Positions 815-40,923 of a DNA stretch of 45,991 bases are shown in pieces. The stretch comes from a virus. Both the position numbers and the translations under genes were made by a program. The notes under the pieces were generated by a model. The model searched no databases, had not been told where the DNA came from, and saw nothing but the letters and a program-made list of their open reading frames with translations. The stretch's first letter is position 1. Each line of letters begins with the position of its first letter. Location: IMG/VR virus record IMGVR_UViG_3300009504_000009, positions 1-45,991 of that record. One strand, written 5' to 3'.

Positions 815-843
815 TTGTGTTTCAATTTAAGTTTTCTATATTC

Positions 844-865
844 ACGCAACTAACTAAACCTGCGT
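844..865 (-). repeat. Short hairpin after a small leftward gene
   Basis: ACGCA at 844-848 and TGCGT at 861-865 can pair around a 12-base loop directly downstream of the stop codon at 870-872. The loop and arm contain GCAACTAAC, also present in the much longer palindrome at 515-592. Short and without a T-run, so weak on its own. Confidence 0.35.
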
Positions 866-869
866 ACCA

Positions 870-1103: not shown

Positions 1104-1114
1104 ATATTTAACTA

Positions 1115-1777: not shown

Positions 1778-1793
1778 TGTAATAATTTAATTA

Positions 1794-1824
1794 CAAATGT
1801 ATCTTTTTTTTCGATTAAATCAAA
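1794..1824 (-). promoter_or_regulatory. Bacteroidota-type promoter for the HAD gene
   Basis: Read leftward: TTTG (complement of 1821-1824), a 19-base spacer, then TACATTTG (complement of 1794-1801). This matches the known Bacteroidota housekeeping consensus TTTG-N19-21-TAnnTTTG exactly. The start codon of the HAD gene follows 16 bases later. Confidence 0.75.
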
Positions 1825-1873
1825 ATTTTATCAATTTTCAAAACTTGTTATTGTGAATCAAGTTTTCTTAGCC

Positions 1874-1880
1874 TATTTAT
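1874..1880 (+). promoter_or_regulatory. Putative phage late promoter motif TATTTAT
   Basis: C-TATTTAT-AAGAAAA; 15 bases before the ATG at 1896. First rightward copy of the motif, opening the neck and tail-completion unit. Confidence 0.6.
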
Positions 1881-1895
1881 AAGAAAATTATAATT

Positions 1896-2180
1896 ATGGC
1901 TTTTCACAACACAAATTGGACCGCACTACCTATGCCAATTGGAACTTATACACTTGCTGAACTTGGTGATGGATTGACTGGTTCTACAGTACATCAAATT
2001 TTCTGTACTACTACTGGAGCCGCTACTATTAGCGCCATGGGTGGCGGAACTTTTACTTGGAATGCAACTGCAGGGCAAAAAATAGATGTAGTATGTGCCA
2101 AGGTGATTGTTTCTTCTGGAGCTTTTGTAGGATTTAAGGCTTCGTTTCAACCAAATTATATTCAATCTTTAAGAGGATAA
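1896..2180 (+). CDS. Small beta-rich putative virion protein (94 aa)
   Basis: Not recognised by family. The sequence is rich in G, T, A and aromatic residues, with almost no lysine or arginine until the C-terminus, and looks all-beta (for example GTYTLAELG, then a TTTGAATISAMGGGTFTW stretch). Such small beta proteins near neck genes are usually head or neck decoration or fibre-like components, which is an inference from composition and position. It is followed after 7 bases by the gp13-like gene and carries its own late-type promoter motif. No signal peptide or membrane segment. Confidence 0.7.
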   Translation: MAFHNTNWTALPMPIGTYTLAELGDGLTGSTVHQIFCTTTGAATISAMGGGTFTWNATAGQKIDVVCAKVIVSSGAFVGFKASFQPNYIQSLRG

Positions 2181-2187
2181 ATAAATT

Positions 2188-3387: not shown

Positions 3388-3410
3388 AATTATTGTATCA
3401 AATAAAATAG

Positions 3411-3983
3411 ATGGCTGATTTAAACGAAATAGGAAGGCAACCAGAGGAGTTCAATGACAATGAGAGAAAGCCTGATGGTATAGATTTATTCTTTGGAGAC
3501 AAGGAACGTGCTTTCTTTAGTTCTGCGGGTAGAGAAATTTCAGAAAATATTCTCAAGGAATCATTTATCTTATATAGAATGGACCTTAAGAGGACTGAGA
3601 CACATTCTCTATATGGACAATCAAAATCTTTTCAGAAAGCATGGAAACCAGAGGTGAAGATTCTTGGTAGAATAAATGTAGAAACTGTTGAGCCAGAATA
3701 TATGGCTGATGGTGGTCTTGTTAAAAAAGGTTTTGGTAAATTAACCGCACATGTATATATGGAGCAACTTGAAGAGCTTGAGCTTGCTGTATACAAACAA
3801 AATCAACTTTCTGTTTTTGATATTAACAATGGAGATTACATAGGATACAAGGATGAGTATTACATGATAGTAAATAATGGACATGCTCAAATATCAAATG
3901 AATTTTCCTGGGGTGGTGATAGAAGATTTTATATCACAATATCAGCAATTGAGGTTGATGAAGATGTTTTTAAGGCGAGATAA
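3411..3983 (+). CDS. gp14: Neck protein, T4 gp14-like
   Basis: 190 residues. The pattern ESFILYRMDLKR, then LYGQSKSFQKAWK, then a beta-rich core ending GDYIGYKDEYYMIVNN parallels T4 gp14, in which an N-terminal ES-I motif is followed by LFGED, F-KAWK and a late GDLIYFP-type motif. Gene order (after gp13, before gp15) gives independent support. The role would be head completion and head-tail joining. Shorter than T4 gp14 (256 aa), lacking the acidic C-terminal tail. A 411-base gene-free element follows directly after its stop. Confidence 0.75.
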   Translation: MADLNEIGRQPEEFNDNERKPDGIDLFFGDKERAFFSSAGREISENILKESFILYRMDLKRTETHSLYGQSKSFQKAWKPEVKILGRINVETVEPEYMADGGLVKKGFGKLTAHVYMEQLEELELAVYKQNQLSVFDINNGDYIGYKDEYYMIVNNGHAQISNEFSWGGDRRFYITISAIEVDEDVFKAR

Positions 3984-4079
3984 AAAATCTAAGTTTAGAA
4001 AAATCTTAGAGTTTATTCAGTTAATATTAACTTCAGTAAATCCTTTACCAGAATTAGGGAAAACACAAAAAAGATAACG

Positions 4080-4098
4080 CCCCCCCTATAGCCCCCCC
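4080..4098 (-). other. Putative G-quadruplex motif (minus strand)
   Basis: On the minus strand two G7 runs are separated by CTATA. Each run can supply two GGG tracts, so G3-N1-G3-N5-G3-N1-G3 can be drawn, which meets the usual intramolecular quadruplex pattern. The plus strand has the corresponding C-tracts. No comparable G/C run was seen elsewhere in the window. Confidence 0.5.
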
Positions 4099-4121
4099 TC
4101 TTTTGAAATTTCTTTCTAAAA

Positions 4122-4169
4122 AGGTGCTGTGTGAGAGATTGCCAGCGATTATTCACTGGTCTTACACCT
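4122..4169 (+). other. Imperfect RNA hairpin inside the gene-free element
   Basis: AGG 4122-4124 pairs with CCT 4167-4169, TGTGAG 4130-4135 with CTTACA 4161-4166 (one G-U), and GCCAG 4141-4145 with CTGGT 4156-4160 (one G-U), leaving a 10-base loop. No T-run follows, so it is not a terminator. Confidence 0.5.
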
Positions 4170-4270
4170 GCAGGGACAGCTAATCAGATAAATCTGATGG
4201 ACTATAGGGAAGTGCGCTTATTTTAAATGTTTTTAACGAGTCTGATAAATTACCATGCCCAGTGTAAAAT

Positions 4271-4318
4271 CTCTGCATCAGAAAGCAACGCCCCCAAAAA
4301 TAAAACTGGTATGCAGAG
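4271..4318 (+). other. Perfect 8-pair stem inside the gene-free element
   Basis: CTCTGCAT (4271-4278) is the exact reverse complement of ATGCAGAG (4311-4318); CAG 4279-4281 and CTG 4306-4308 can extend it past a small bulge. The loop contains the third C-run (4291-4295). Confidence 0.5.
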
Positions 4319-4373
4319 CAAAAGCCGAGCAAATGTAATAAATAAAATAGTATGTTTCCAAATTTATTGTAAC

Positions 4374-4380
4374 TATTTAT
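4374..4380 (+). promoter_or_regulatory. Putative late promoter motif TATTTAT
   Basis: C-TATTTAT-TAAAAAAA; 14 bases before the ATG at 4395 of the gp15-like gene. Confidence 0.6.
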
Positions 4381-4394
4381 TAAAAAAAGTATAA

Positions 4395-5111
4395 ATGGCT
4401 ATTAATGACAACATAGGAAAGTTTTTAGATAAGGATTTTGAAAACTTCAACTATCTCCCACAAAAACTCATGCTTGAGGACTTGGACCAAGGAATAAAAG
4501 ATTATATTGATAGTCTTGAAATAAGCATGGTTAATGAAAACGGTCTTCTTACAAAAGTTCCAATTGTTTGGCTTGCTCAAGAACTTTGGGCTGAGAGAAA
4601 AATGAACTGGAAAGAGATGAGAAGTGAACTTGGAGAAGAGATTACAAGACCATTTATGACAATCTATAGAAATTCTGCAGTTCCTGGAACATCTCCACTC
4701 AAGAGAACAATTCCAAAGAAAATGACATTTAGATTTGTTAAGGTTCCAATTTTTGATGGAACCCTTAAGGGATATGAATTATATAAAGTACCTCAACCAG
4801 TATATGTTGACACAAGCTATACACTTAGTCTTTTCACTCATTATATGGTAGATGTCAATGTTTTTTATGAAATGATATTGGCTGAAGGATATTCTGATGG
4901 ACAAGGATACATGAAAATTAATGGGTATAATATCTCATCAAAATTGAATGGGGACCCAAGTGAAAATAACAAGACAGATATTACTCAGGAGAAGATTTAT
5001 AGGATAGATATACCATTGCTTGTTCAGGGTAAAATTGTTGACCCCACTAAGTTTGAGAAAGTAAATACTATTACAAAGGTGTTAATTAAAATTTCAGAGA
5101 AAAGAAGATAA
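4395..5111 (+). CDS. gp15: Tail terminator / completion protein, T4 gp15-like
   Basis: 238 residues. The sequence order VPIVWLAQELWAERK, PFMTIYRNSAVPG, then TLSLFTHYMVDVNVFYEMIL and a final RIDIPLLVQGKI follows T4 gp15 (VPITYASKE, then INLHLVDFSYNAP, ELSIFTRYEDD, and a C-terminal WSLTFEV strand). gp15 forms the hexamer that caps the finished tail and docks to the neck. Position after the gp13 and gp14 genes and before the sheath gene matches T4. Its own late-type motif sits 14 bases upstream. Assignment rests on motif order and synteny, not on close identity. Confidence 0.75.
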   Translation: MAINDNIGKFLDKDFENFNYLPQKLMLEDLDQGIKDYIDSLEISMVNENGLLTKVPIVWLAQELWAERKMNWKEMRSELGEEITRPFMTIYRNSAVPGTSPLKRTIPKKMTFRFVKVPIFDGTLKGYELYKVPQPVYVDTSYTLSLFTHYMVDVNVFYEMILAEGYSDGQGYMKINGYNISSKLNGDPSENNKTDITQEKIYRIDIPLLVQGKIVDPTKFEKVNTITKVLIKISEKRR

Positions 5112-5139
5112 TTCAATAATGTTTTATCTTTTTTCTTCT

Positions 5140-5146
5140 ATTTATA
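5140..5146 (+). promoter_or_regulatory. Putative late promoter motif TATTTAT
   Basis: C-TATTTAT-AATAAAG; 15 bases before the ATG at 5162; probably also serves the sheath gene, which lacks a copy of its own. Confidence 0.6.
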
Positions 5147-5161
5147 ATAAAGTTTGAGTAT

Positions 5162-5464
5162 ATGAAGATTAAGAACAAGAAAAACACTGCAAATTATGTC
5201 AATTATAAGGATAATGGATTGCCTATGAAGGTCATGATTGCAGGTGGTCAAACAGTTGATATTCCAGGTCTTAATAATGTATCACAAATATTCAACAGCG
5301 GAGACTTCAAGAGAGGTTTTTTTGAGGTAGTAAACGAAACAACAGTAATTGCTGATGTAGAAGTTGCTCCTAAGAAAAAATCTTCTACTAAAAAAAGTAA
5401 AACTGAAGATTCTCTTGATAAAGTTGAAAAAGAAGTAAAGAATTATACCGATAACGAGGAATAA
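5162..5464 (+). CDS. Small hypothetical virion-associated protein with lysine-rich tail (100 aa)
   Basis: Not recognised. Residues 1-70 look like a small beta domain (VMIAGGQTVDIPGL, FEVVNETTVIADVEV). Residues 71-100 form a charged, disordered tail (PKKKSSTKKSKTEDS then acidic). The gene lies between the gp15-like and sheath genes, 38 bases before the sheath start, and most likely shares its transcript. Small proteins of this kind ahead of sheath genes are often tail or head accessory components; this is an inference from position only. Confidence 0.65.
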   Translation: MKIKNKKNTANYVNYKDNGLPMKVMIAGGQTVDIPGLNNVSQIFNSGDFKRGFFEVVNETTVIADVEVAPKKKSSTKKSKTEDSLDKVEKEVKNYTDNEE

Positions 5465-5502
5465 TAAATAGAAAGTAACTAACAAAAATTAATAAAAGCG
5501 AT

Positions 5503-8181
5503 ATGGCAACAATATTTGTTTCACCTGGTGTTTTCACAAGAGAGCAAGACTTCACAATCTTTGCATCAAGAATAGGTATTACAAGATTGGGAGTTGTAGG
5601 AAAAACCCTTAAGGGACCAGCCTTCGAACCAATTAAAATAAGAACTACAGATGACTACTTGCTTAGATTCGGGTCTACTGACCCAGATTATCCACTACCA
5701 TACGTGGCTAATTCATTCTTAGCACAGTCTAATGAATTAACTGTTACCAGAGTTCTTGGTACCAGTGGTTTTGAAAATTCACCAGCTTGGTTAATAGTTG
5801 CTGGTTTATCAGAAACTTTTTCAGGAACATCAACATTTAGTGGACTTACATTTACTAAGACAGGCGCTCTTGCTCCAATTACTTACAACTTCTCTTCTAT
5901 CACAGAGTCTACAATGGCCGATGGAACAGTGAGTGCATATACAGTTGGAAATGATGTTGTAATTAACTATAGCGGTACAGTAATTTCAAGCGAAGTTAAT
6001 ACAGCCCTTTCTTTAGACCCAGATTATGTTGCTCTTGGAATTACAACTACAAGCGATACTGTTACAACTCTTGGAGATGGAACGTGGTCACTTGTTGTGT
6101 CAGACGTTGAGCCAACTCCAAAATCTGGTGCTACACTTGCAGTTCTTAGAAGTAAGAGAAATCAAATTACAAATTCTTTTTATCTCGATGAACAGAGTGA
6201 TGTAACTATTGGCGCTATAACTACAACCCTTGGTTCATTCATGTTGAGTGCAACTACTGGTCCACTTACAGCACAAACAAATAGCGGTTTCACTATTTCA
6301 CTTGACGAAACAAGAGAAGATTACATTGTGAAGATTCTTGGTAAAAACCCTGAAGTGATTGAAGGAACTTCAAATCTTTATGTAGAGAGAATTTATCCTC
6401 ACTTCATTAGACAAGCAGAATCAGTAAAAGATATTCGAAATATTAATCCAGAGCTTGTTTACACTGAAGAAACTTCATATACAGATTTTCAAAATTCATA
6501 CACTAACGCTGTAACACCTTGGGTGGTATCAAGAGTTATTGGTGGAGACGTAAAAAATCTATTTAGAGTTCAAACTATCTCTGATGGTGATGCATCTAAT
6601 AATGAAATTAAGATTTCGATTGCAAATATCGACATTAACAATTACACTTTTGACATCATCGTAAGAAGATTTGAAGATACAGATGCTACTGCATCATCAA
6701 CAGCGCTTGAAAGATGGTCTAATCTTTCTCTTAGAGAAGAAGACTCAAATTACATCGCTAAGGTAATCGGTACAACAGATGAAGAATATCCAAGAAAATC
6801 AAATTTCATTACAATTGACTTGGCACCTTCTTTCCCAAGAAACACTGTTCCTGCTGGATTTAGAGGTTATAGCTTAAGAGAGTCTGGTTTATCAGGTTCA
6901 ACTTCGGCTGACATCTATTACAAGACAGGATACCTTTCTGGTGACTCAGTATTTAAAACATTCCTTGGAATTTCTGAACTTGGATACACTAACTTTACTG
7001 CTAATGAAGTTTCTACAAGAAATGCAGTTAAGAATATCGAGTTAGACTTATTTGTTTACGAAGGAGGAGAATCAGCTGATAGAAGAGTGATTAAAGGTTT
7101 CCACCTTGAGAATACAGCGAATTCAAATGATTTCGTTACTGGAGACGTTGATTCACTTACTGGATATACAAATGCTGCTCAAACTCTTATCGACAGAAAT
7201 AAATTGAAGTTTACTTTGGTTCCTGCAGGTGGATTTGATGGATGGGATAAATACCAATCATACGCAGAGCTTTTTGATGAGTTCACAGATGCTTATACAT
7301 CAAATGTAAATGCATTTAAGTCAGCTCTTGATGAAATAGCTAATCCAGAAATAGTAGACATTAATGTTCTTGCTACTCCAGGTGTTGACTTCAGCAATAA
7401 CAGAACAATCGTTAGATATGCTCTTGACATTGTAGAAGATAGAACTGATGCAATCTATGTAATGGATGCACCAAGGCTTACTTCAGGTTCTATAAAAGGA
7501 ACAGCAGAAGAAGTGGTTTCAAGACTTGAGGCAACTGGTATCGACAGCAACTACGCTGCTACATACTGGCCATGGGTTCAAATTGAAGACCCTAACTCTG
7601 GTAAATATACTTATCAAGCTCCTACAATGCTTGCGGTTCAAACTTATGCACTTACAGATAATGTAGCTGCGCCATGGTTCGCTCCTGCAGGTCTTAACAG
7701 AGGTCTTGCTGGACCACAAATTGTTAGAGCTGACGTTAGATTGAACAATAACCAAAGAGATACGCTTTACCAAGGTAGAGTTAACCCAATCGCAACATTT
7801 GTACAACAAGGTGTTGTTATCTGGGGACAAAAAACTCTTCAAGTTAGACAATCTGCTCTTGACAGAATTAACATCAGAAGATTGCTTCTTCAAGTTAGAA
7901 GATTGGTATCTGCTGCATCTCTTACACTATTGTTCGAACAAAACGACCAAACATTGAGAGACCAGTTCCTTGCAAAAGTTGAGCCGATTCTTCTTCAGAT
8001 TCAAAATCAAAGAGGTCTTACTGCGTTCAAGGTTGTTATGGATGATTCTAATAACACTGCAGACACAATTGATAGAAATACATTGGTTGGTAAGATTCAA
8101 CTTCAGCCTACAAGAACAGCTGAATTCATCGACCTTACGTTCCAAGTTCTTCCGACTGGTGCAAGGTTTGAGGATTTCTAA
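5503..8181 (+). CDS. gp18: Contractile tail sheath protein, T4 gp18-like
   Basis: Starts with the sheath signature ATIFVSPGVFTREQD, continues with GVVGKTLKGPAFEP and LTVTRVLG. It ends with the conserved C-terminal block QGVVIWGQKTLQ, VRRLVSAAS, FEQNDQTLRDQF, and a final VLPTGARFEDF. This is the subunit whose rings around the tube contract to drive injection. At 892 residues it is larger than T4 gp18 (659); the extra length is a Ser/Thr/Gly-rich, beta-type insertion at about residues 95-300 that would decorate the outer surface. It is followed by a strong terminator. No TATTTAT copy lies directly in front, so it is probably read from the promoter at 5140. Confidence 0.95.
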   Translation: MATIFVSPGVFTREQDFTIFASRIGITRLGVVGKTLKGPAFEPIKIRTTDDYLLRFGSTDPDYPLPYVANSFLAQSNELTVTRVLGTSGFENSPAWLIVAGLSETFSGTSTFSGLTFTKTGALAPITYNFSSITESTMADGTVSAYTVGNDVVINYSGTVISSEVNTALSLDPDYVALGITTTSDTVTTLGDGTWSLVVSDVEPTPKSGATLAVLRSKRNQITNSFYLDEQSDVTIGAITTTLGSFMLSATTGPLTAQTNSGFTISLDETREDYIVKILGKNPEVIEGTSNLYVERIYPHFIRQAESVKDIRNINPELVYTEETSYTDFQNSYTNAVTPWVVSRVIGGDVKNLFRVQTISDGDASNNEIKISIANIDINNYTFDIIVRRFEDTDATASSTALERWSNLSLREEDSNYIAKVIGTTDEEYPRKSNFITIDLAPSFPRNTVPAGFRGYSLRESGLSGSTSADIYYKTGYLSGDSVFKTFLGISELGYTNFTANEVSTRNAVKNIELDLFVYEGGESADRRVIKGFHLENTANSNDFVTGDVDSLTGYTNAAQTLIDRNKLKFTLVPAGGFDGWDKYQSYAELFDEFTDAYTSNVNAFKSALDEIANPEIVDINVLATPGVDFSNNRTIVRYALDIVEDRTDAIYVMDAPRLTSGSIKGTAEEVVSRLEATGIDSNYAATYWPWVQIEDPNSGKYTYQAPTMLAVQTYALTDNVAAPWFAPAGLNRGLAGPQIVRADVRLNNNQRDTLYQGRVNPIATFVQQGVVIWGQKTLQVRQSALDRINIRRLLLQVRRLVSAASLTLLFEQNDQTLRDQFLAKVEPILLQIQNQRGLTAFKVVMDDSNNTADTIDRNTLVGKIQLQPTRTAEFIDLTFQVLPTGARFEDF

Positions 8182-8200
8182 TATTAGAAAACATAAAATA

Positions 8201-8237
8201 AAAAAGAGGATTTGAAAATAAGTCCTCTTTTTTTTTG
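8201..8237 (+). terminator. Rho-independent terminator after the sheath gene
   Basis: AAAAAGAGGA (8201-8210) pairs with TCCTCTTTTT (8223-8232) around a 12-base loop and runs into a T-tract. Confidence 0.85.
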
Positions 8238-8266
8238 TTACCTCTCCCTAAAATGATTTCTATTTC

Positions 8267-8273
8267 TATTTAT
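8267..8273 (+). promoter_or_regulatory. Putative late promoter motif TATTTAT
   Basis: C-TATTTAT-ATAAAAA; 20 bases before the ATG at 8294 and just after a terminator, so it starts a new unit. Confidence 0.6.
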
Positions 8274-8293
8274 ATAAAAAGCTGTATTTTAAG

Positions 8294-8770
8294 ATGTCTG
8301 GAATATATTTTCACCCAATAAAAAGAATATTTTTGAACCTGTCAGGGGGCACTGTGACAGGGGATACTGTATTTACAGAAGGTGTATATTCTGAGCGCTT
8401 TTCAGGTGGTACAATTTTCTCTGGTTCAACGCCTCTTGAGACAATAATTAGAAATATTGCAACTGGCCAAACAACTCAGGGAGACTACCTTCCACTCTCA
8501 GGAGGAACAGGGGGTCCTTATAATTTTGTTGGCTCAACTACTGCGGATACAATAAACATCATAACTACAATGGAGCCAACAACAGATAATACTGTTAGCC
8601 TTGGTAGTCCTGTGAGAAGATTTAGAAGTCTTAATGTAGTAGATGGTGTAGCAGTTAATTTTACAGCATCAACAAGGGTTAAAACAGCACAACTGGAACT
8701 TGGAAGTACATTGGTAACTGAGCATAATATTATTTTATCAGGAAACTGTATTGATGGTGGAGTTTGGTAA
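8294..8770 (+). CDS. Short fibre or appendage protein (158 aa)
   Basis: Composition and motifs are those of phage fibre shafts: LSGGTVTGDTVFTEGVY, FSGGTIFSGSTPLE, then a TVSLGSPVRRFRSL unit. The last type (LGS, RW/RF, a beta strand) also occurs in the 700-residue fibre protein that follows. Both end with an IDGG motif plus aromatic residue (here IDGGVW). It is probably a short trimeric appendage or a baseplate-proximal fibre segment. It has its own late-type motif. Assignment as virion fibre is confident in class, not in position on the virion. Confidence 0.7.
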   Translation: MSGIYFHPIKRIFLNLSGGTVTGDTVFTEGVYSERFSGGTIFSGSTPLETIIRNIATGQTTQGDYLPLSGGTGGPYNFVGSTTADTINIITTMEPTTDNTVSLGSPVRRFRSLNVVDGVAVNFTASTRVKTAQLELGSTLVTEHNIILSGNCIDGGVW

Positions 8771-8779
8771 AAAAAAACA

Positions 8780-8786
8780 TATTTAT
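8780..8786 (+). promoter_or_regulatory. Putative late promoter motif TATTTAT
   Basis: A-TATTTAT-TAATAAA; 23 bases before the ATG at 8810. Confidence 0.5.
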
Positions 8787-8809
8787 TAATAAACAATAAA
8801 AAGCAAAAA

Positions 8810-10912
8810 ATGGCTGAAATTAGACAAGCAACAATTAAAGTAAGAGATAGACAAGTAACTGGAGGTTCCATACCTGGAGATGCATTATTTGGTGAACCAT
8901 TTGTAAACCTATACAATGGTGTTCTTAGGTTTTCAGGAGTAACTGGGGGTGATTATGAAGCTTCAGCACAATCTGGAATTTTTGAAGTAGGGTCAACACT
9001 TTACAATTCATATGTATCAAACAGGTTTAATATTAATGATAACTTTATTATCAGCGGTGGCACTGGATTAATATCTACTTATGGTGGTGTATCTGGAGCT
9101 GGTCTTGGTGGTAAATTTCTTTCTGGTACAACCAACGGCTTTGTTCTTGGTAATATATCAGATATTCAAGGAGTAACCACAAGAGTTCAGCCAGGTGTTA
9201 ATACATATACTGGTGGAACTCCAGATAACCCAACTGTTAATGTTGTTGACTCTCCAAGTTTTAATCAAGTTACAACCTCAGGCTCATCAACTTTTGCAGG
9301 GGCAAATTTCACTGGAGCTATTCAATCGGGCGGAACAGACCTTTATTCTATATTTGTAACTGAGAATACAGATGACATAACAAGAGTTCAAGCAGGAACA
9401 AATATTGTGACTGGAGGAACAGCGAACAATCCAATAATTAGCGTTGTTGATTCACCAAGTTTTAACAATGTTTCTTTCTCAGGTGTTGCGACTGGAGGCG
9501 ATATAGTTGTTGATGAATTAAGTGCATCTACAATATACTCTGGCGGAACAGACCTTTATGACATTTTCTTAACTTTTGGAGATGTATCGGGAACAAGTGT
9601 GAGTGCAGGTTCAAATATAAATGTTCAGCAATCTGGAAACGATTATCATGTTTCAGTTGTTGACTCACCAAGTTTTAATCAGATTACAACTTCAGGTACA
9701 TCAACTTTTGCTGGAGCAAATTTCACTGGAGCAATTCAATCAGGTACAACAGACCTTTATGACATATTTGTCACAGAAGACACAAACGACATAACAAGAG
9801 TTCAGGCAGGAACAAATATTGTGACTGGAGGAACAGCTAATGAACCAATTATTAGTCTTGTTGACTCACCTTCAATTAATGGATTGACTACATCAGGAGC
9901 CTCAACTTTTAAAGGAACTGTTACTGTTACTGGTCTTACAAACACAAGGGTTGTATTTGCAGGAGCTGGAGGATTACTTTCAGATGACGATGGGATGACA
10001 TATAACTCAGGAACGGATGTTCTTACAGTTAATGGAAATCTTACAACAAATGGCACTCAGTATTCTGGTGGAACGATTGTTGATGATGGAATTTTCACAA
10101 TTGCCGCAGCAACACAAGTTGAAGTAGATAGTAACCTTCTTCCAAGCGCCCACTTAACATACACACTTGGTGCTGTAGGAAAAAGGTGGGATGAAGTGTT
10201 CACAAGAAAAGTTAGCATCGGAACATCCACAACAGTAATTGAGGACAACTTATTCTCTTCAACAACTGGAGACATGTTGTTTGATTTTTCTGGAAACCTT
10301 TCAATTAATAACAATGTACTTCCAAATTCAAACCTTGATTATGAACTCGGTTCAACAGGTTCAAGATGGAGCACAGTTTTCGCACAAGACCTTGACCTTA
10401 CGGGAGCACTTACAGTTACTGGCATTTCAAATTCAAGTTTGACAGCTGGAAGAGTTGTATATGTTGGAACAGGCGGAGAGCTTATTGATGAAACTGGCTT
10501 TGAATATGACCAAGCAGTAAATCTTCTTAAGGCTGGAAATATTCAAATTGGTAATCCAGGAGATACAGGAACGACAGCTACAATATATGGAGATGTTCTT
10601 ATTATTGGAGACGCTATAAGCGGATTTACTTCAGAGCTTTATATTGAAGATAACTTCATTGAACTTAACTACAATCCAACAGCATCCACAGAATCAACGT
10701 CTCTTGGAGCTGGTTGGTCAATTCAAGATGGTTCAGGCACAGCGGGAACAGATGTTATTTGGGATATTAGAGGAGCTGCCACTGGTCTAAATAATCGTTC
10801 ATTCTCAACAAACTTATTTGACCTAAGAATTAGAGAGACTGGAACAGCATCTGCTCCTAATGGATTGAGGGTTATAGTAGAAACGGATATTATTGATGGT
10901 GGGTCATATTGA
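8810..10912 (+). CDS. Repetitive tail fibre protein (700 aa)
   Basis: The N-terminus (MAEIRQATIKVRDRQVTGG, then a GEPFVNLYNGVLRFSG segment) is the attachment-type start also seen in the fibre gene at 13667. The shaft consists of beta-rich repeats: SGGTDLYDIF followed by ITRVQAGTNIVTGGT and VVDSPSFN units, one of which is duplicated at DNA level. Further on come two LGS-RW-VF units (TYTLGAVGKRWDEVF, DYELGSTGSRWSTVF). The C-terminus ends IDGGSY. It is probably a trimeric fibre for host contact. Downstream of its TGA, in the next frame, a further IDGGIY-stop can be read, suggesting an old frameshift at the tip. A strong terminator follows. Confidence 0.85.
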   Translation: MAEIRQATIKVRDRQVTGGSIPGDALFGEPFVNLYNGVLRFSGVTGGDYEASAQSGIFEVGSTLYNSYVSNRFNINDNFIISGGTGLISTYGGVSGAGLGGKFLSGTTNGFVLGNISDIQGVTTRVQPGVNTYTGGTPDNPTVNVVDSPSFNQVTTSGSSTFAGANFTGAIQSGGTDLYSIFVTENTDDITRVQAGTNIVTGGTANNPIISVVDSPSFNNVSFSGVATGGDIVVDELSASTIYSGGTDLYDIFLTFGDVSGTSVSAGSNINVQQSGNDYHVSVVDSPSFNQITTSGTSTFAGANFTGAIQSGTTDLYDIFVTEDTNDITRVQAGTNIVTGGTANEPIISLVDSPSINGLTTSGASTFKGTVTVTGLTNTRVVFAGAGGLLSDDDGMTYNSGTDVLTVNGNLTTNGTQYSGGTIVDDGIFTIAAATQVEVDSNLLPSAHLTYTLGAVGKRWDEVFTRKVSIGTSTTVIEDNLFSSTTGDMLFDFSGNLSINNNVLPNSNLDYELGSTGSRWSTVFAQDLDLTGALTVTGISNSSLTAGRVVYVGTGGELIDETGFEYDQAVNLLKAGNIQIGNPGDTGTTATIYGDVLIIGDAISGFTSELYIEDNFIELNYNPTASTESTSLGAGWSIQDGSGTAGTDVIWDIRGAATGLNNRSFSTNLFDLRIRETGTASAPNGLRVIVETDIIDGGSY
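9242..9884 (+). repeat. Internal duplication in the fibre gene
   Basis: About 228 bases beginning at 9242 recur, diverged mainly at third positions, beginning at 9656 (offset 414). Both copies encode VVDSPSFNQ, a TFAGANFTGAIQSG stretch, TDLY and ITRVQAGTNIVTGGT. It is a shaft-module duplication. Confidence 0.75.
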
Positions 10913-10942: not shown

Positions 10943-10976
10943 AAAAAGACAAAGCTTGATTGCTTTGTCTTTTTTA
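10943..10976 (+). terminator. Rho-independent terminator after the fibre gene
   Basis: AAAAAGACAAAGC (10943-10955) pairs perfectly with GCTTTGTCTTTTT (10962-10974) around a 6-base loop. Confidence 0.9.
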
Positions 10977-10981
10977 TTTAT
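10975..10981 (+). promoter_or_regulatory. Putative late promoter motif TATTTAT overlapping a terminator
   Basis: TATTTAT-AATTAAT begins in the T-tract of the preceding terminator; 19 bases before the ATG at 11001 of the homing endonuclease. Confidence 0.45.
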
Positions 10982-11000
10982 AATTAATTTAAAACTTAGT

Positions 11001-11783
11001 ATGAAATCAGGAATTTATAAAATAACAAATACAACTAATGGAAGGGTCTATATTGGACAGGCAGAGAATTTGAAAACAAGATATAATATTCACTTGTATA
11101 GAATTAAAAGAAACGAGCATCACAATGAGCATTTGCAAAGGTCTTTTAATAAACACGGTGAAGATAAATTTGTTTTTGAAATTTTAGAAGAAGTAGAAGA
11201 TTTGTCTACTTTAAATTTACGAGAGAAGTTTTGGATTGACTACTATGGAGGAATCAATAGTAAAGATACTTATAATCTAAAGGACCCACTTCTTAATGAA
11301 CACAATGATTATGTCAAAAGCAAATTAAGTAAAGCTACTTCTGGAGAAAATAATCCTAATTATGGAAATAAGTGGTCTGATGAACAAAAAGAAAATATGT
11401 CTAAATCCAGGAAAGGAAAATCATGGGTTGAAATTTATGGAGAAGATAAAGCGAGTGAAATGAGAGAAAATGCATCTGAGTCACAAAAAGGTAGGGAACA
11501 TTCTGAGAAGACAAAAGAAAAAATAAGACAAGCTAATATTGGAGAGAAGAATCCTTTTTATGGAAAAGGGTATACTCAGCTTGGAGAAAATAATCCAAAT
11601 TATGGTAAAGAATCAAGTCAAAGAAAAATTTTGCTACAATTTAATAAAGAAGGTGATTTAATTAAAGAATATGAATTTTTATCGCAAGTAAAAGAAGGTG
11701 GTTTTCATATAGGAAATGTAGCTTCAGCAGCAAGAGGTGAGTTGAAATCTTCTGGAGGTTTCATTTGGAAGTATAAGGAATAA
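11001..11783 (+). CDS. GIY-YIG homing endonuclease, I-TevI-like
   Basis: Residues 1-95 form a GIY-YIG nuclease domain: GIY at 4-6, VYIG at 16-19, catalytic R27, and E75 in LREKFW. The start MKSGIYKITNTTNGRVYIG is strikingly like I-TevI of T4, and the catalytic residues fall at the same numbers. Residues about 115-215 hold NUMOD3-type DNA-binding repeats (GENNPNYG, GEKNPFYG, GENNPNYG). The C-terminus (RKILLQFNKEG to the end) resembles a NUMOD1 helix-turn-helix. I chose ATG 11001 over the earlier frame opening because the domain starts exactly here. It is free-standing between a fibre gene and a DUF4326 gene; I see no intron around it. Mobile genes like this spread into cognate phages lacking them. 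Confidence 0.92.
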   Translation: MKSGIYKITNTTNGRVYIGQAENLKTRYNIHLYRIKRNEHHNEHLQRSFNKHGEDKFVFEILEEVEDLSTLNLREKFWIDYYGGINSKDTYNLKDPLLNEHNDYVKSKLSKATSGENNPNYGNKWSDEQKENMSKSRKGKSWVEIYGEDKASEMRENASESQKGREHSEKTKEKIRQANIGEKNPFYGKGYTQLGENNPNYGKESSQRKILLQFNKEGDLIKEYEFLSQVKEGGFHIGNVASAARGELKSSGGFIWKYKE

Positions 11784-21205: not shown

Positions 21206-24200
21206 ATGTATATAGTATTTGATACCGAAACAACTGGTAAGGCAAAGAGCTTCTCCGCACCCATAACAGACTTCAACAATTGGCCAAGAATGGTTCAGAT
21301 TGCATGGAAAGTCTTCGACAAAAATGGGGTAGAAATAGATTCTCAGAATCTAATCATTAAGCCTCAGGGCTATGTCATTCCTGATGATGTCATTAAGATT
21401 CATAGAATTACAAATGAGAGAGCCAAAGCCGAAGGAGTACCTCTTAGGGAAGCGCTTCAAAAATTTGCACAAGTTGTAAAGAATAGTAAATATCTTATTG
21501 CACACAACATTACATTTGATGAAAATGTGGTTGGGTGTGAGCTATTGAGAGAGGGGATGCATAATTACATCCCAGACATCTTGCATATTGATACCATGAC
21601 AAGCACAACAGAATTTGTTGGCTTGCCAAACAAGATGGGAAGAAGTGGGTTTAAGTATCCATCAATGGCTGAGCTTCATGAAAAGCTTTTTGGAAGAGGA
21701 TTTGAAGATGCGCACGATGCACTTGCGGATGTTACTGCATTAGCAAGGTGTTTCTTTAAATTACAAGAAATAGGAGTTCTTGGGTTTAAAGAAAGTGATA
21801 GTGAGGTTAGCACAGAATCACTTGTTGAATTTGTAGAAAGCAATACTCCATCTAAATCTGAGAGTAATAGCTCTATTCCGATGGTTCCGCTTGGGCTTCA
21901 CACTTTTCACTCAATACTTGAAGGGGCTGGCTCTGTTGATGAGTACATAAAAATAGCTCAATCACTTGGTCACACATCTATGGCCATAACTGATAATGCA
22001 ACTTTATCTGGAACATTCGAATTTTTTAACAAGTGCAAGTCCAAGGGTATTAAACCAGTTTTTGGGATTGAAGTGCTATTAAATGATAATATTGGGGCGT
22101 TTGAAGATAAAGCTATTGAGGGCGATAATTTTAAAATTAAGATATTCATAAAAGATAAAGCTGGGTATAGCAACTTAAATCACCTGCTGTATCTTGCAAA
22201 TACAGAAGGCTACTACAAGAAAGAGGGGAGAATAACTACTGATTGGCTTTTGAAATATAAAGAAGGTCTTCTTGTGTCTACATCAGGTCTTGATAGCAAA
22301 CTTGCAAGTATGGTGTTGAGAGGAAAAGAAAATGATGCAGAAAATTATGTAAACATGATGAGGTCCGAGTTTGGAGATGACCTCATAATAGAATTAAAAT
22401 TTAGTAAATTCGCCAATCAAAAACAGTATAATAACTTCTTGCTTAAGATGATGCGGAAGTATAATATCATGCCAGTGTTAAGCAATGATACTTACTATCC
22501 ATCTAAAGAGGACTCTGTTCTACAAGACATTGTGACATCAATTAAGCAGCATCGACCTATGTCTAACTGCTCCCTGAAGGAAAATAGAGAGCTTTGGTAT
22601 TTTGGGAGTGAAGATTTTAGGCAGATGAATTCTAAGTATGATTTTAACTATCCAGATACATTCCTTGAATTATGTATGAACAATACACTTAAAGTTTCTG
22701 AGAAGTGTAATTTTGAATTCGAGACTGGTGTTGAAAAATATCCAAGGTATGAGCCCACTGAAGATGTTGTCAAATACTTTGGTACTGAAAAGTCGGATGA
22801 GATTATTAAAAAACTTGCCTTTGCAAAACTAAAGAAGAAGATTAAGAAGTATCAGGAAAATGGTATTGTTGAAATGACAGATGATAAAATTAAGGATTAT
22901 GTTGACCGCCTTAATTATGAGCTTGAAGTCATCGAATCTAAGAAGATGCTTGATTACTTTCTTGTGAACTGGGAGATTATAAACTACTACAGAAACAGGG
23001 GTTATGATATTGGTCCTGCTCGTGGTTCAGCTGCTGGCTCGCTGTTATCATGGTGTCTTGACATTACTAAGATTGACCCAATAAGATTTGGCTTATACTT
23101 TGAGAGATTCCTAAACCCAGAGAGAAATTCACCTCCTGATATTGACATAGATTTTATGACTGGAACTGATGACATCACAAATCAGTTTTTAATTGAAAAA
23201 TATGGGAAGGAACGTGTAATGTCTGTTGGTACATTTGGTACTTTTTCTGAGAAGAATACAATCAAGGACGTTGTTAGAGCATATCAAGGCAAGGAGGCAA
23301 CTGGATTTGGCTCTGATGTATTTGCTGTTACTGATGAAATGCCAGATTTCCTCAAATACAATGATACACTCAAGCATTGGTTTGAAACGTGGCCAGATAA
23401 GCCAGAGTGTACTCCAAGAGTTAGGAGTTGGATTCGAGACCCAAAGAACAAAGAAATGATTGATGTAGCTCTTAAGCTGCAGGGAAATATTAGAGGAATT
23501 GGACAGCATGCTGCTGGTATAGTTATCACTCCTGATGTATCTTGGAATTATGTTCCGACAAACATAATTGCATCAAATGAAAATATAGTTACAGCATTTC
23601 AAGAGGCGGATAAGTCTGGAAAGGATTTGTCAGCTCTTGGAATTCTAAAATTAGACAGACTTAAACTTGAAACGCTCAATGTAATTAAAGATACGATTGA
23701 GATTGTGAAGAAAAATAAGGGAATCGACATATCTGATAAGGTTGATTATGTTGACCTTGAAGATGATAATTTGTTTATTGAACTTAGGCTTGGTTTGAAT
23801 CATGGTATATTTCAGTTTGAGAGCCATGGTATGAACAACTTAATTAGAGGCATGCAAGTTGAAAGGTTTGAAGAACTTGTTGCCTGTAATGCACTATATC
23901 GTCCAGGACCAATGGGTATTGGCGCTCACGAAGAGTTCATCATGAATAAATTTAATCCTGAAAAAATTAACTTGGTTCACCCAGCTCTTGAGCCTATTCT
24001 TAGGGAGACAAATGGAGTACTTGTATTCCAGGAACAACTAATGTTCATTGCTGACAAGATTGGTGGAATGGGCCTTGGTAAGGGAGATAATCTTAGACGA
24101 TACATGGATAAGGCGAGTAGGATTATTGCTCGACACTCGGCTGGGGAAAAGTTAACTCCAGAAGAAGAAAATAACTCGAATTGGAAAGGTTTCCAACAGT

Positions 24201-25294
24201 ATTGGAATATGTTCCTTGATGGAGCTGCTGCGCAGGGTTATGATAAAGGTGAGGTTGATAAGATTAAGGATTGGGTTATTCAGTATCTTGGATATTCATT
24301 CAACAAGAGTCACTCATTATCATATAGCTATCTTGCAATGCAAACTCTATATTTGAAGCACTACTATCCTACAGAGTTTTATACAGCATTATTAAATCAC
24401 CCAAAATCTGGCACAAAAGAAAAGCAGCAACAATGGATTGCGTCTGCAATTGCCTCAGCAATGTCTAAGGGAATTGTAATCAAGAGACCTTCAAGAAAGT
24501 CTGGGTGGGAATGGACAATGACTGGCGAGCATGAAATATCAATTGGATTTTCTGGAATTAATGGCCTTGGTCCAATTGCTTATGAGGAAATGGTTCAATT
24601 GATAGCAGACATTCCAGTGGATAGTGGAAAGCCAAAAAAAACACTTGAGACAATCAATATGAGTACATTCATGAGATTGCCATTTAGTAAGTTTAACAAA
24701 GGAGCATTCACAGCATGTCTTAAGGCGGGAGTTTTTGATGATTGGGGCGATTCAAGAGAACAGTTATTGGCTCTTAAGCAGAAAAAAAAGAAAAAAGTTC
24801 CAGCAAATCAAGGTGTTTTATTTGATATGAATGACCCAGCGTTTGACATACCAGTTAAAAAAGAGGAGAACAAATATCCTCCAACATCAGAAGCGCTAAA
24901 GAGGTTGGATTTTATCGAGGTTTGTAATTTTGACCTTGAAAAAATTAAGTATGTGCTCGATATTAAGAATGATGTAAACCAAAGGGCAAGGAGAAGTAAG
25001 CCAGTTGAGACTGTGATTAATTTTGACGACAATGACTACTACATTTTTGTTGTGGAAACATTTAGGTTAATGCAGGGCAAGACTGGAAAGGAATATTTAA
25101 CGATGAAAGTTGGGGATGGAATTAGTTTCACGACACTTAGAGCATTTGAACCAACAGTCCAAGACCTTCTACCAGTTCTTGCTACAAATGGAATCTATGT
25201 AGCTGAATTCGTTAAGAATGAGAAAGGTTACATAAATTTCAAGAGAGGAACAAGGATAGTTAGAGTTGATAAAGATATTAGTAAAAATAAGTAG
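21206..25294 (+). CDS. dnaE: DNA polymerase III alpha subunit fused to DnaQ-like exonuclease
   Basis: 1362 residues. Residues 1-190 are a DEDDh exonuclease: FDTETTG (D6, E8), AHNITFDEN (D105) and HDALADV (H170, D175). Residues about 228-500 are a PHP domain (HTFHS 232-236) with metal ligands partly lost: ITDN at 261-264 replaces ITDH. The polymerase core has GPARGSAAGS near 602-611, PDIDIDF near 644-650, LKLDRLKLETL with D817, and CNALYRPGPMG. QGVLF at 1202-1206 resembles a sliding-clamp motif, followed by an OB-type domain (about 1265-1350). It is the replicative polymerase with built-in proofreading. It begins a replication block and carries a host-like promoter. Uncommon for T4-related virion gene sets, which normally go with family B polymerase. 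Confidence 0.96.
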   Translation: MYIVFDTETTGKAKSFSAPITDFNNWPRMVQIAWKVFDKNGVEIDSQNLIIKPQGYVIPDDVIKIHRITNERAKAEGVPLREALQKFAQVVKNSKYLIAHNITFDENVVGCELLREGMHNYIPDILHIDTMTSTTEFVGLPNKMGRSGFKYPSMAELHEKLFGRGFEDAHDALADVTALARCFFKLQEIGVLGFKESDSEVSTESLVEFVESNTPSKSESNSSIPMVPLGLHTFHSILEGAGSVDEYIKIAQSLGHTSMAITDNATLSGTFEFFNKCKSKGIKPVFGIEVLLNDNIGAFEDKAIEGDNFKIKIFIKDKAGYSNLNHLLYLANTEGYYKKEGRITTDWLLKYKEGLLVSTSGLDSKLASMVLRGKENDAENYVNMMRSEFGDDLIIELKFSKFANQKQYNNFLLKMMRKYNIMPVLSNDTYYPSKEDSVLQDIVTSIKQHRPMSNCSLKENRELWYFGSEDFRQMNSKYDFNYPDTFLELCMNNTLKVSEKCNFEFETGVEKYPRYEPTEDVVKYFGTEKSDEIIKKLAFAKLKKKIKKYQENGIVEMTDDKIKDYVDRLNYELEVIESKKMLDYFLVNWEIINYYRNRGYDIGPARGSAAGSLLSWCLDITKIDPIRFGLYFERFLNPERNSPPDIDIDFMTGTDDITNQFLIEKYGKERVMSVGTFGTFSEKNTIKDVVRAYQGKEATGFGSDVFAVTDEMPDFLKYNDTLKHWFETWPDKPECTPRVRSWIRDPKNKEMIDVALKLQGNIRGIGQHAAGIVITPDVSWNYVPTNIIASNENIVTAFQEADKSGKDLSALGILKLDRLKLETLNVIKDTIEIVKKNKGIDISDKVDYVDLEDDNLFIELRLGLNHGIFQFESHGMNNLIRGMQVERFEELVACNALYRPGPMGIGAHEEFIMNKFNPEKINLVHPALEPILRETNGVLVFQEQLMFIADKIGGMGLGKGDNLRRYMDKASRIIARHSAGEKLTPEEENNSNWKGFQQYWNMFLDGAAAQGYDKGEVDKIKDWVIQYLGYSFNKSHSLSYSYLAMQTLYLKHYYPTEFYTALLNHPKSGTKEKQQQWIASAIASAMSKGIVIKRPSRKSGWEWTMTGEHEISIGFSGINGLGPIAYEEMVQLIADIPVDSGKPKKTLETINMSTFMRLPFSKFNKGAFTACLKAGVFDDWGDSREQLLALKQKKKKKVPANQGVLFDMNDPAFDIPVKKEENKYPPTSEALKRLDFIEVCNFDLEKIKYVLDIKNDVNQRARRSKPVETVINFDDNDYYIFVVETFRLMQGKTGKEYLTMKVGDGISFTTLRAFEPTVQDLLPVLATNGIYVAEFVKNEKGYINFKRGTRIVRVDKDISKNK

Positions 25295-36546: not shown

Positions 36547-36561
36547 AATAAACACTAATTG

Positions 36562-39500
36562 ATGGAAGACGGTTTTCCTTTATTTGACCCTAATGATGAA
36601 GCAGCGAGACAAGAGCAGAGGCTAAAAGAATACTATGAAGAATTCTCAGCAAATGCCAGACAAAGACTTCTTGCAAAAGCTATCGTTAGACCAATCACTG
36701 TTTATGATGTACTGTATCCACAGACAAGGGAGGTTTTATTGTCAAAAAATACTCCATTTGAAAGTAATCTTGAGGAAGATGCGAAAATCATTAGAGATAG
36801 ATTAATTGCGAAAATTATTACTGATGAGACTGATTTAGAAAAGATTTCTGTTGACTTTAGAAACTCGATGCTTGCAAGAGCTAAGTTTCAGGATGATAGA
36901 GAAAGGTTAATGAGAGATGGTGATTCTTTCAGAAAAAATCTTATTTCAAAAAACTCACCAAACTCAAGTGATATTGAAAAAGATTCTGAATTAATAAGGA
37001 GAAATAATATTTCTAAAAATAAACCGAATCCATCACTCGCTGATAGCATTGATGATAATAGTCCTACATTTAGGGGTAATAACATTTCTAAGAACACTCC
37101 TAAGGAGCAGGATTTATTAAGAGATAGTGAATCATTCAGAAATCAATTTAGAAAGAATGATATTCATAAGAACGTACCAATTAATGCTGACCTTGAAAAA
37201 GATTCTGAAGCATTTAGAAGAAACAATATTGCTAAGAATAATGATAGTGGCACCGATAATGCTGAAGAGCTATCAAGGCTTAGGAGAGAAAATCAATTAG
37301 CAAAGAACTCATCAAACACTTCTTCTATTGAAGAAACCTCAGATGCATTTAGAAAAAATGAATTATCAAAAAATCTTCCTAAGGACCAGGATTTATTAAG
37401 AGATTCTGAGAGTGTAAGAAATCAGTTCAGAAAGAACGACATCAACAGAAATGTTCCTAAGGATAGTGACATTGAAAGAGATAATAGTGCTTTTAGAAGA
37501 AATAATCTCACTAAGAATATTCCTGCAAAATATGATATTGATAAGGATTCTGAAATTTACAGAAACAATAACCTATCAAAAGATGCTAATGGTGTTGGGC
37601 CAAATATTGATGATATAGCTAAAGAAAAAAGAATCAATAGCCTGGCAAAGAACATTCCAAGTAATTCTAATATTGAGAGTGATTCTGTTGTATTTAGAAA
37701 AGACGATTTATCAAATAATCTCCCTAAAAAATCTAATCTTGAAAAGGATTCTGAAGAGTTTAGGGCAGATGACTTATCGGCAAATAAACCGAAGGTTAGT
37801 GACCTTGAGAAAGATTCAGCTCCATTTAGAGCAGATGACTTATCTGCAAATAAACCAAGTTTTACAAATTTAGAAAATGACTCAATTCAGTTTAGAACAG
37901 ATGACCTTTCTTTAAATAAGCCAAGCAAAAGTGACCTTGAGAGAGATTCTGTTAATTTTAGAAAAGATGACCTTTCTTTAAATAAACCAAATTTTAGTGA
38001 CCTTGAGAAAGATTCGGCTCAATTTAGGGCAGATGACCTTTCTGTAAATATACCAAATAATAGTGACCTGGAGACGGATTCAGCTCCATTTAGAGCAGAT
38101 GACTTATCTGCAAATAAACCGAGTTTTACAGATTTAGAATCTGATTCTGTTATATTTAGAGAAGATGACCTCTCTTTAAATAAACCGAGTTTTACAAATC
38201 TTGAAATTGATTCAGTACAATTTAGAATAGATGACCTTTCTTTGAATACTCCTAATTTTAGTAATCTTGAAGAAGATTCGGTTCAATTTAGAGAGGATGA
38301 CTTATCTTTTAATGTACCAAGTACAAGTGACTTAGCAACCGACTCTACACCATTTTTGTTTAATAACCTTTCTCCAAATGTTCCAAACAATAGTGACTTA
38401 GAGCTTGACTCAGTTCCATTTAGAGAAGATGACCTTTCTGCAAATGTGCCAAGTAATAGTAATTTGTTTGTAGATTCTGAAGATTTTAGAGCTGACAACC
38501 TATCTTCAAATGTTCCGAGTAATAGCAACCTACTTGTTGATTCAGCTTTATTTAGAGCGAATGGTATTGCAGCAAACGTTCCCAATAGCACAAGTGTATT
38601 ATTTGATTCTATTCCTTTTAGGGAAAGCAATCTTTCTCCAAATGTTTCAAGTGGAACAGATTTGTTGACTGATTCTTCATCGTTTAGGAATAGTGCTATC
38701 GCAAAGAATGCTGGATTTGGCCTTCTTGGTGTAAATGTGCAAGGTGCTGGAACCAGTGCGTTCCTGGGAATATCAAGAGTGTTTACTCAGGGTATTCTCA
38801 TTAGACAATTGCTATTCTCTAAGAATAAGTCAAAAAACACTAATTTACTTTTAGATTCTGAAACATTCAGAAAAAACAATCAGGTTCCAAATAATTGGCA
38901 GATTAGTAGTAATGAATATACTTCAACAAATCAAAATTGGAAGCTTGGAAGAATAATGCAAGGTAGCTATAATACAAATATTGTTGACTATTCTCCTCTT
39001 GAGCCATATAAAACACCTACAGCTAAAGCGATATTTTCAACGGATGATTATATTGTGACTAAGGGTAGGGAGATGCAGAAGTTATATGGAACCAGCCAGA
39101 GTGTTGATTTTCCAACTGGTAGAAAAGAAAGGGAAATAACTGATGCTCTTTATTCTGTAAATTCAAAAAATCCTAAGGGTGGAGAATTTTTGGACCCATT
39201 CTTTAAGAGACAAACTTTTGTTAATTACTTGGAAGGTTCTGTTACAACTACGATAAGAAAATATGCTCAAGAGAGAAGTACATTTAATTTGCGTGGATTA
39301 CAAGCTGGAAATCCAGATTCTCTTAATGCTTTAAATAATTTTGCACAAGACGGATTTCAAGACCTAATTCAAAAGACAATTGGCTCCTTTAAGGCTTTGG
39401 CTCAGCTAAGAACGCTCACGACTCCAACTAACATAATTCAGAAGAATGGAGGAGTTTATTATGCGGGTGGAGCTGGAGAGGCTGATATATTAAGGCCAAA

Positions 39501-40923
39501 TGCTGTGGGCGCAGAGCTTGGTTCAGCAGAATCAATGATGGCTAAGACAGTTCTTGGAAATCCTTTTGAGGATAGTGATTTCTTTGCTGGAAAAAGAGGT
39601 GTTAAACACATTGTTAATACAATTAAAAAGAGTGATTCACCTTTAGCTGCAAATTTTGACCCACAGAACAACAAGGCTTACATTACTGGAGTTAATAGAG
39701 ATGGTTCACCTAAGGTATCAAGACAAAGGTTTACAATAGCAAATCCTTATGCTCCTGGGCAAGCTGGAAAACTTATATTTTACATCAAGAATTATTCGAG
39801 CGGAGACCAGTTTTTCTTCCCTCCATACATTCAAAGTATTTCAAATACAGAAAATGCAAATTGGAATTCTACAAATTTTCTTGGAAGACCAGAGGCTGTT
39901 TACACATACAATAATTCCAGCAGGGATGCGTCAATATCATTTTATGTGCTTACAGATTATTCTCAAAATGTTGACATTGGTAGAGATTGGGGGAGCGAAA
40001 ACATGGAAAAAGTTACAGCCAACATAAGTCGTCATTTTACCGACTCTGATGTATCACAAAATTCTCGAAGACAACTTAAGGAAGAGCAGCTTCAAAAACT
40101 TAAGTCTGAGCAAACTAAAAAAATGAATGAAGTTAATGATAAGATTTCAGAGAATAATGCCGAAGCAATTCAATTGGAGAAACAGCCAGAGATAACAGCT
40201 ACTACAGGAGAGGGGCCAACACAAGTAAGTTCAAATGTTGCAAGTGCTAAGAAAAATAAGGAAAAGAAAGATAAGGAAATAGCTTTTAATAAATTTAAAA
40301 ACAACACAGAAGGCGCAGCTCTATCAATAGAATTGGCTAATATTACTAAAGAACTTGGTAATACAGAGAGTTCTATTGGGCAAACTGATGCTGATTTCAA
40401 TACAGTTACAAATTATTCCGAAACTAATATTGTTGGCAATAATGTTTATAACATAAATGTAACTAAGCGAGAATTTAATAATGGAGAAATAATTACTAAA
40501 CCAGAAGATACTATAACCAGAATCGACACAATGAAGCAAAGTTTAATGTTTCAACCAGCTTTTTTCTCTGGAGATAAAGTTGATTTTGTCAGAAAGGTTG
40601 AGTTTTTATCTAAGCTTACAAGGCCTGCTGCTGCATATGAGGGGGATGAGATTCCTAAGACTGGATTTTCATTCACCAAGCCACCTATATGCCACATTCA
40701 TCTTGGAGATTGGTGGAATCATGACATCGTTGTAAACAGCGTTGCATTTGACTATGCTGATGCTCCATGGACACTTGACGGAGGAAGAGTTCAGCCTATG
40801 TGGGTCCTCGTGAGTATTAACTTTAATATCATTGGTCCATTTATGGCACAAAACTCTCGCCCACCTCTTTCTACTGATGCTGGTGGTATGTTTAGTCCGC
40901 TTAAGGGAGTAACCAGAGCTTAA
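36562..40923 (+). CDS. Baseplate/tube-initiator-like protein with about 30 tandem 22-residue repeats
   Basis: 1453 residues from ATG 36562 (a TTG one codon earlier is possible). Residues about 59-711 are an uninterrupted array of about 29 units of 22 residues with consensus D-L-S-x-N-x-P-x-x-S-D-L-E-x-D-S-x-x-F-R-x-D; one more unit sits after a short break. Residues about 1050-1150 (ANPYAPGQAGKLIFYIKN then FFPPYIQSISN) and 1330-1450 (KPPICHIHLGDWWNHDIVVN, then AFDYADAPWTLDG and FNIIGPF) look like a tube-type baseplate domain such as T4 gp48/gp54. A coiled-coil, Lys/Glu-rich insertion lies between them (about 1170-1285). The position after the tape measure supports a tail-tube/baseplate junction role. 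I know of no named family for the repeat. Confidence 0.8.
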   Translation: MEDGFPLFDPNDEAARQEQRLKEYYEEFSANARQRLLAKAIVRPITVYDVLYPQTREVLLSKNTPFESNLEEDAKIIRDRLIAKIITDETDLEKISVDFRNSMLARAKFQDDRERLMRDGDSFRKNLISKNSPNSSDIEKDSELIRRNNISKNKPNPSLADSIDDNSPTFRGNNISKNTPKEQDLLRDSESFRNQFRKNDIHKNVPINADLEKDSEAFRRNNIAKNNDSGTDNAEELSRLRRENQLAKNSSNTSSIEETSDAFRKNELSKNLPKDQDLLRDSESVRNQFRKNDINRNVPKDSDIERDNSAFRRNNLTKNIPAKYDIDKDSEIYRNNNLSKDANGVGPNIDDIAKEKRINSLAKNIPSNSNIESDSVVFRKDDLSNNLPKKSNLEKDSEEFRADDLSANKPKVSDLEKDSAPFRADDLSANKPSFTNLENDSIQFRTDDLSLNKPSKSDLERDSVNFRKDDLSLNKPNFSDLEKDSAQFRADDLSVNIPNNSDLETDSAPFRADDLSANKPSFTDLESDSVIFREDDLSLNKPSFTNLEIDSVQFRIDDLSLNTPNFSNLEEDSVQFREDDLSFNVPSTSDLATDSTPFLFNNLSPNVPNNSDLELDSVPFREDDLSANVPSNSNLFVDSEDFRADNLSSNVPSNSNLLVDSALFRANGIAANVPNSTSVLFDSIPFRESNLSPNVSSGTDLLTDSSSFRNSAIAKNAGFGLLGVNVQGAGTSAFLGISRVFTQGILIRQLLFSKNKSKNTNLLLDSETFRKNNQVPNNWQISSNEYTSTNQNWKLGRIMQGSYNTNIVDYSPLEPYKTPTAKAIFSTDDYIVTKGREMQKLYGTSQSVDFPTGRKEREITDALYSVNSKNPKGGEFLDPFFKRQTFVNYLEGSVTTTIRKYAQERSTFNLRGLQAGNPDSLNALNNFAQDGFQDLIQKTIGSFKALAQLRTLTTPTNIIQKNGGVYYAGGAGEADILRPNAVGAELGSAESMMAKTVLGNPFEDSDFFAGKRGVKHIVNTIKKSDSPLAANFDPQNNKAYITGVNRDGSPKVSRQRFTIANPYAPGQAGKLIFYIKNYSSGDQFFFPPYIQSISNTENANWNSTNFLGRPEAVYTYNNSSRDASISFYVLTDYSQNVDIGRDWGSENMEKVTANISRHFTDSDVSQNSRRQLKEEQLQKLKSEQTKKMNEVNDKISENNAEAIQLEKQPEITATTGEGPTQVSSNVASAKKNKEKKDKEIAFNKFKNNTEGAALSIELANITKELGNTESSIGQTDADFNTVTNYSETNIVGNNVYNINVTKREFNNGEIITKPEDTITRIDTMKQSLMFQPAFFSGDKVDFVRKVEFLSKLTRPAAAYEGDEIPKTGFSFTKPPICHIHLGDWWNHDIVVNSVAFDYADAPWTLDGGRVQPMWVLVSINFNIIGPFMAQNSRPPLSTDAGGMFSPLKGVTRA
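36736..38694 (+). repeat. Coding tandem repeat, 66-base unit, about 29 copies
   Basis: Unit of 22 codons. Early copies are diverged and a few carry 1-4 extra codons; copies 14-23 (about 37640-38310) are the most alike. The most conserved positions are the FR pair, D-L/I-S/A, N-x-P and L-E-x-D-S. Third-position differences between units show the array is old and under protein-level selection rather than a recent slippage product. Confidence 0.9.

Follow-up and report, generated by a model that had tools for sequence, protein, structure and literature searches.

Current understanding assigns the control of tail length to the tape measure protein (TMP), the known tail ruler in other phages, whose length (T4 gp29, lambda gpH) is proportional to that of the tail, approximately one tail ring corresponding to 24-27 helical residues. 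The T4 proteins gp48 and gp54 are hexamers, and their genes, like those of the tube initiators of contractile injection systems (CIS), share with the gene described here a position between the TMP gene and gp53-like genes. To our knowledge, a long N-terminal repeat array is absent from the known tube initiators.

The DNA analysed (the window, that is, the whole stretch) is a 45,991-base record of an uncultured virus. Its genes include those for a portal and a terminase that are T4-like, for a contractile sheath and for a tube protein of the gp19-like kind (Table 1). The array gene lies directly downstream of the TMP gene and is followed by the gp53-like wedge gene; it thus adjoins TMP and baseplate genes, as expected of a tail tube initiator (T4 gp48/gp54, CIS tube initiator). 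The ATG at 36562 is a more likely start for its reading frame than the TTG at 36559. The tube gene belongs to a short inverted block, away from the sheath gene. Other genes of the window include one for a DNA polymerase III alpha-type polymerase with PHP and exonuclease domains (21206-25294) and an open reading frame (10956-11783) whose start is similar, by eye only, to GIY-YIG homing endonucleases.

Table 1 Features of the window discussed in the text, with the basis of each assignment.
Feature	Position	Strand	Basis
Contractile tail sheath protein	5503..8181	+	PF17482 above its cut-off; PF04984 just below its cut-off
Tail tube protein (gp19-like), 162 aa	13008..13496	-	phrog_4542, E 2e-27; PF06841 below its cut-off
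Tape measure protein (TMP), 1133 aa	33118..36519	+	Position; match to the annotated TMP of Flavobacterium phage immuto; orthologue in relative L026 matches a tape measure PHROG
Array-bearing tube-initiator-like protein, 1454 aa	36559..40923	+	ORF; same layout in IMG/VR relatives
30 tandem units of ~22 residues (residues 39-713)	36673..38697	+	Profile decomposition
Last 16 units, strictly 22 residues	37642..38697	+	Profile decomposition
39-residue conserved hydrophobic motif GLLGVN...FLGISRVFTQG, closing the array	38698..38814	+	Alignments
Separated 31st unit (residues 753-774), behind the hydrophobic motif	38815..38880	+	Profile decomposition
C-terminal domain, putatively tube-like, with long helical insertion	39595..40923	+	Conserved alignment; AlphaFold model; Foldseek
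gp53-like baseplate wedge subunit, 101 aa	40975..41280	+	phrog_7145, E 1e-8

The repeat array noted in an earlier, sequence-only reading of this DNA was confirmed. Its units scored up to 60 bits, compared to 9.4 bits for the best among 140 shuffled proteins, and the autocorrelation of the protein showed maxima at lags of 22, 44, 66, 88 and 110 residues. The span (36736-38694) and the count (about 29 units plus one separated copy) given in that reading were right, except that a degenerate first unit had been missed. The 16 regular units have a mean identity of 62% at the DNA level and 55% at the protein level, and where residues are identical the codon is shared in only 58% of cases, which fits its proposal that the pattern is kept at the protein level. 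Searches of the array against Pfam, PHROG and PDB by sequence returned zero matches, in keeping with its description of the repeat as unfamiliar, and neither a family match in these searches nor a compact predicted fold (AlphaFold) connected the array to a known solenoid repeat family. The solenoid that it had also envisaged was not supported as a self-standing fold: AlphaFold modelled 16 units with low confidence and in a form that is not compact (pLDDT 55, pTM 0.15), each unit being modelled, with low confidence, as a helix of ~14 residues and a loop of ~8. The motif that closes the array was modelled as a beta hairpin plus a helix (low confidence). Charge per unit was negative in the four arrays for which it was computed (-0.6 to -4.7).

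The C-terminal part of the protein (~700 residues, after the separated unit) was modelled with medium confidence (pLDDT 59, pTM 0.38). The best Foldseek matches of this model were contractile-injection baseplate/tube proteins, with the baseplates 7b5h, AFP 6rao and PVC 6j0n among the matches, and would fit a tube-like C-terminal fold; the best E value in PDB was 3e-3, none being below 1e-3, 16 matches below 1e-3 were obtained against BFVD, and viral models annotated as 'contractile injection system tube protein' were also matched. The array protein showed no sequence match to a curated family (Pfam, PHROG, PDB), a difference from T4 gp48/gp54. The Foldseek matches, together with the gene order, support, but do not prove, that the C-terminal part acts as a tube initiator, and back the term "tube-initiator-like" used in the sequence-only reading.

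IMG/VR searches identified 28 sequences with the 22-aa array type, near-duplicates included; few relatives were found in phage collections, a genome-collection scan revealed no relatives, and open-literature searches returned no account of such an array, which is not proof of absence. The near relatives of the window carry units, and even short insertions, at matching positions. Units were counted with a cyclic profile model and a spacing rule, restricted to the array region; an earlier, unrestricted model overcounted (spurious C-terminal hits, partial units). Most relatives have 30 units, some have 28 or 29, others 23-27, and three have 83, 84 and 98. Two counts were amended: that of one relative (L060) was lowered to 30 from 31, and that of another (L008) was set by hand at 30, since the automatic count failed on its few units of at least 31 residues; the number of units is kept in this protein despite their length. 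In L022, a frameshift at 8479-8498 splits the array protein; since the near-identical L023 is intact, this is probably either an error or a mutation of recent origin. The array is absent from L028 (with a 1222-aa ORF in the TMP position) and from Flavobacterium phage immuto (1006-aa TMP), whose gp035 has a related C-terminal core and the same neighbours; these genomes show the array to be dispensable at moderate length.

TMP length, which stands here for tail length, follows the number of units almost linearly: TMP length = 346 + 25.93 (±0.22) x units (r 0.999; 27 proteins, 23-98 units). TMPs were identified across members by position, homology and, for some, PHROG matches. The slope was 25.86 ± 0.32 with one representative per cluster (16 representatives) and 19.4 ± 3.3 (r 0.865) in the 14 short representatives alone; most of the overall slope is set by two long-tailed sister phages. 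When independent contrasts were taken, with a tree built from the C-terminal part, the slope was 26.2 (r 0.997), or 21.8 (r 0.96) once the three strongest contrasts were removed. Control lengths did not scale, neither that of the downstream gene (r 0.31) nor, within the protein itself, that of the C-terminal part (r -0.09). The count in relatives that the sequence-only reading had proposed comparing with tail length thus runs from 23 to 98 units and tracks TMP length, a proxy for it. At an assumed helical rise of 1.5 Å, 26 residues span 39 Å, i.e. one tail ring; in two contractile phages with solved structures, the ring rise is 39 Å (phiCD508, PMC11948020) and 36.2 Å (A-1(L), PMC10966104).

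The TMP ORFs upstream of the two longest arrays, those of the pair L055 and L058, encode, counted from their likely starts, 2505 residues (L071, ORF 2379-9986, minus strand) and 2900 residues (L072, ORF 653-9403, minus strand). Both TMPs are built on a tandem repeat that is hydrophobic and has a period of exactly 56 residues, in ~24 and ~31 copies, respectively. The arrays of the pair differ by 308 aa, exactly 14 x 22, and their TMPs by 395 aa, that is 7 x 56 + 3, corresponding to two array units per 56-aa TMP repeat; they are sister phages and amount to one comparison. At equal TMP length, L054 is without one 23-residue unit that is present in L055 (after residue 1629 of L054), a strain variation or an assembly difference. 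Given this pair, the TMP, and not the array, is probably the primary ruler.

Arrays built from other units occur in related proteins. Microcystis phage Mel-JY01 was reached through a weak match; its protein WWT39329.1 shares the related C-terminal core and the same neighbours with the window protein, and carries a different array, of about 26 units, with an unrelated 44-residue unit; no published report of the tail length of this phage was found. A scan with the shared domain revealed further loci with periods of 44 or 39 residues, and ~60 loci without a detectable array. In the arrays of the 44-aa family, the 44-type units are preceded by others of ~37 and ~22 residues. TMP length increases in this family by 22.6 ± 1.8 residues per unit (r 0.98, n = 8), with units of all three types counted partly by eye and not blind to TMP length; 44-type units alone gave 23.7 ± 6.5 (r 0.83). 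These hand counts replaced two automatic counts that had failed on irregular units, one of which, with visible miscounts, gave 16.7 ± 5.7 (r 0.74). An additional member (L161), counted by eye after the fit, has 23 units and a TMP of 1265 residues, compared to 1277 on the line. The intercepts of the two families are unlike (346 in the 22-aa family versus 757 in the 44-aa family), and, since the hand counts were not blind, the 44-aa lineage backs the scaling less firmly than the 22-aa family. In a 484-kb phage (LR756508), for which a scan revealed no close relatives, ~51 units of 16-17 residues accompany a TMP of 1602 residues, 48 units being predicted from the 22-aa line. Across units of 17, 22 and 44 residues, what follows the TMP appears to be the number of units and not the number of residues. 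The array scales with the neighbouring TMP as TMPs do with tails, but unlike them it resides in a protein of its own, joined to an initiator-like domain, and it is the number of its units, not of its residues, that follows.

The scaling suggests a previously undescribed strand that runs along the tail ring by ring. In the mechanism that we favour, the initiator-like protein would form a ring at the start of the tail tube. From there its N-terminal array would extend along the tail as this grows, next to the TMP, with one unit per tube ring; a hexameric initiator would give six strands, and consequently one unit per tube subunit. We consider it reasonably probable that initiator-anchored strands follow the tail in this manner, one unit per ring. 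The equivalence of one unit and one ring, the hexameric state and the permanence of the strands in the tail are inferred, the first of them from TMP length as a proxy for tail length and from the assumed 1.5 Å per residue. The array may help tube subunits to add in register, or it may reinforce long tubes; its strands may lie in the lumen or between tube and sheath. The negative charge of the units would suit the DNA channel. By our own estimate, six 44-residue units plus the TMP would hardly fit, per ring, into a lumen of ~40 Å, and this bulk favours a strand outside the tube in the 44-aa lineage. If this mechanism is true, long contractile tails would possess a structural element not described before, a second protein following the TMP at about one ring per unit; counting units in a genome would give tail length, and both the matching of tube growth to the TMP and the reason why only some long tails carry a strand would become testable.

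The main rival to this mechanism is an assembly chaperone covalently linked to the initiator-like domain, each unit of which would coat ~26 TMP residues ahead of tube formation and be displaced as tube rings add, so that the array would act on the TMP without forming part of the finished tail. The lambda proteins gpG and gpGT are thought to coat the TMP and then be displaced. Such a chaperone predicts the same scaling with TMP length, and agrees with an array gene placed directly after the TMP gene and with modelled units made of short helices and loops with no compact fold. However, the domain to which the array is fused should, being tube-initiator-like, remain part of the virion, and a coat on the TMP need not show the observed equality of slope and ring rise; we regard the chaperone as unlikely, though worth serious consideration.

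The sequence-only reading had suggested a ruler, a wrap around the tube or a flexible appendage; it was partly supported overall, and the scaling favours a ring-by-ring, tail-matched element and counts against a free appendage. A fibre or wrap on the outside of the tail that lengthened along with it for some other reason, with no ring-by-ring contact, would agree with the bulk of the 44-aa units, which by our own estimate seem too large for the lumen; yet two observations, a slope of nearly one ring per unit and the exact match of 14 units to seven TMP repeats between L055 and L058, would then be coincidences, and we hold this explanation to be highly improbable. Very little credence is given to the array as the ruler itself, with unit number fixing tail length and TMP length following. 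The near constancy of 28-30 units over much divergence, and the agreement of unit number with TMP length, are what such a ruler would produce, but L054 and L055 are one unit apart at the same TMP length, array-free relatives must measure their tails by other means, and other phages use the TMP.

The C-terminal domains of the 22-aa and 44-aa families are related over a 54-column core. A common origin of the 22-aa and 44-aa units found no support, their profile similarity being no better than chance (p 0.5). We see about an even chance that covalent, initiator-anchored strands, with one repeat per ring over the whole tail length beside the TMP, evolved independently in several lineages of long-tailed contractile phages as a second tail-length-matched element. 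The array had the appearance, by eye, of an amplification of one ancestral N-terminal unit present in array-free relatives; most of their N-termini scored no higher than shuffled sequences, and this origin is consequently not claimed. In the broad family of array-free relatives (L087-L154), the ORFs in the TMP position are mostly of ~600-750 aa.
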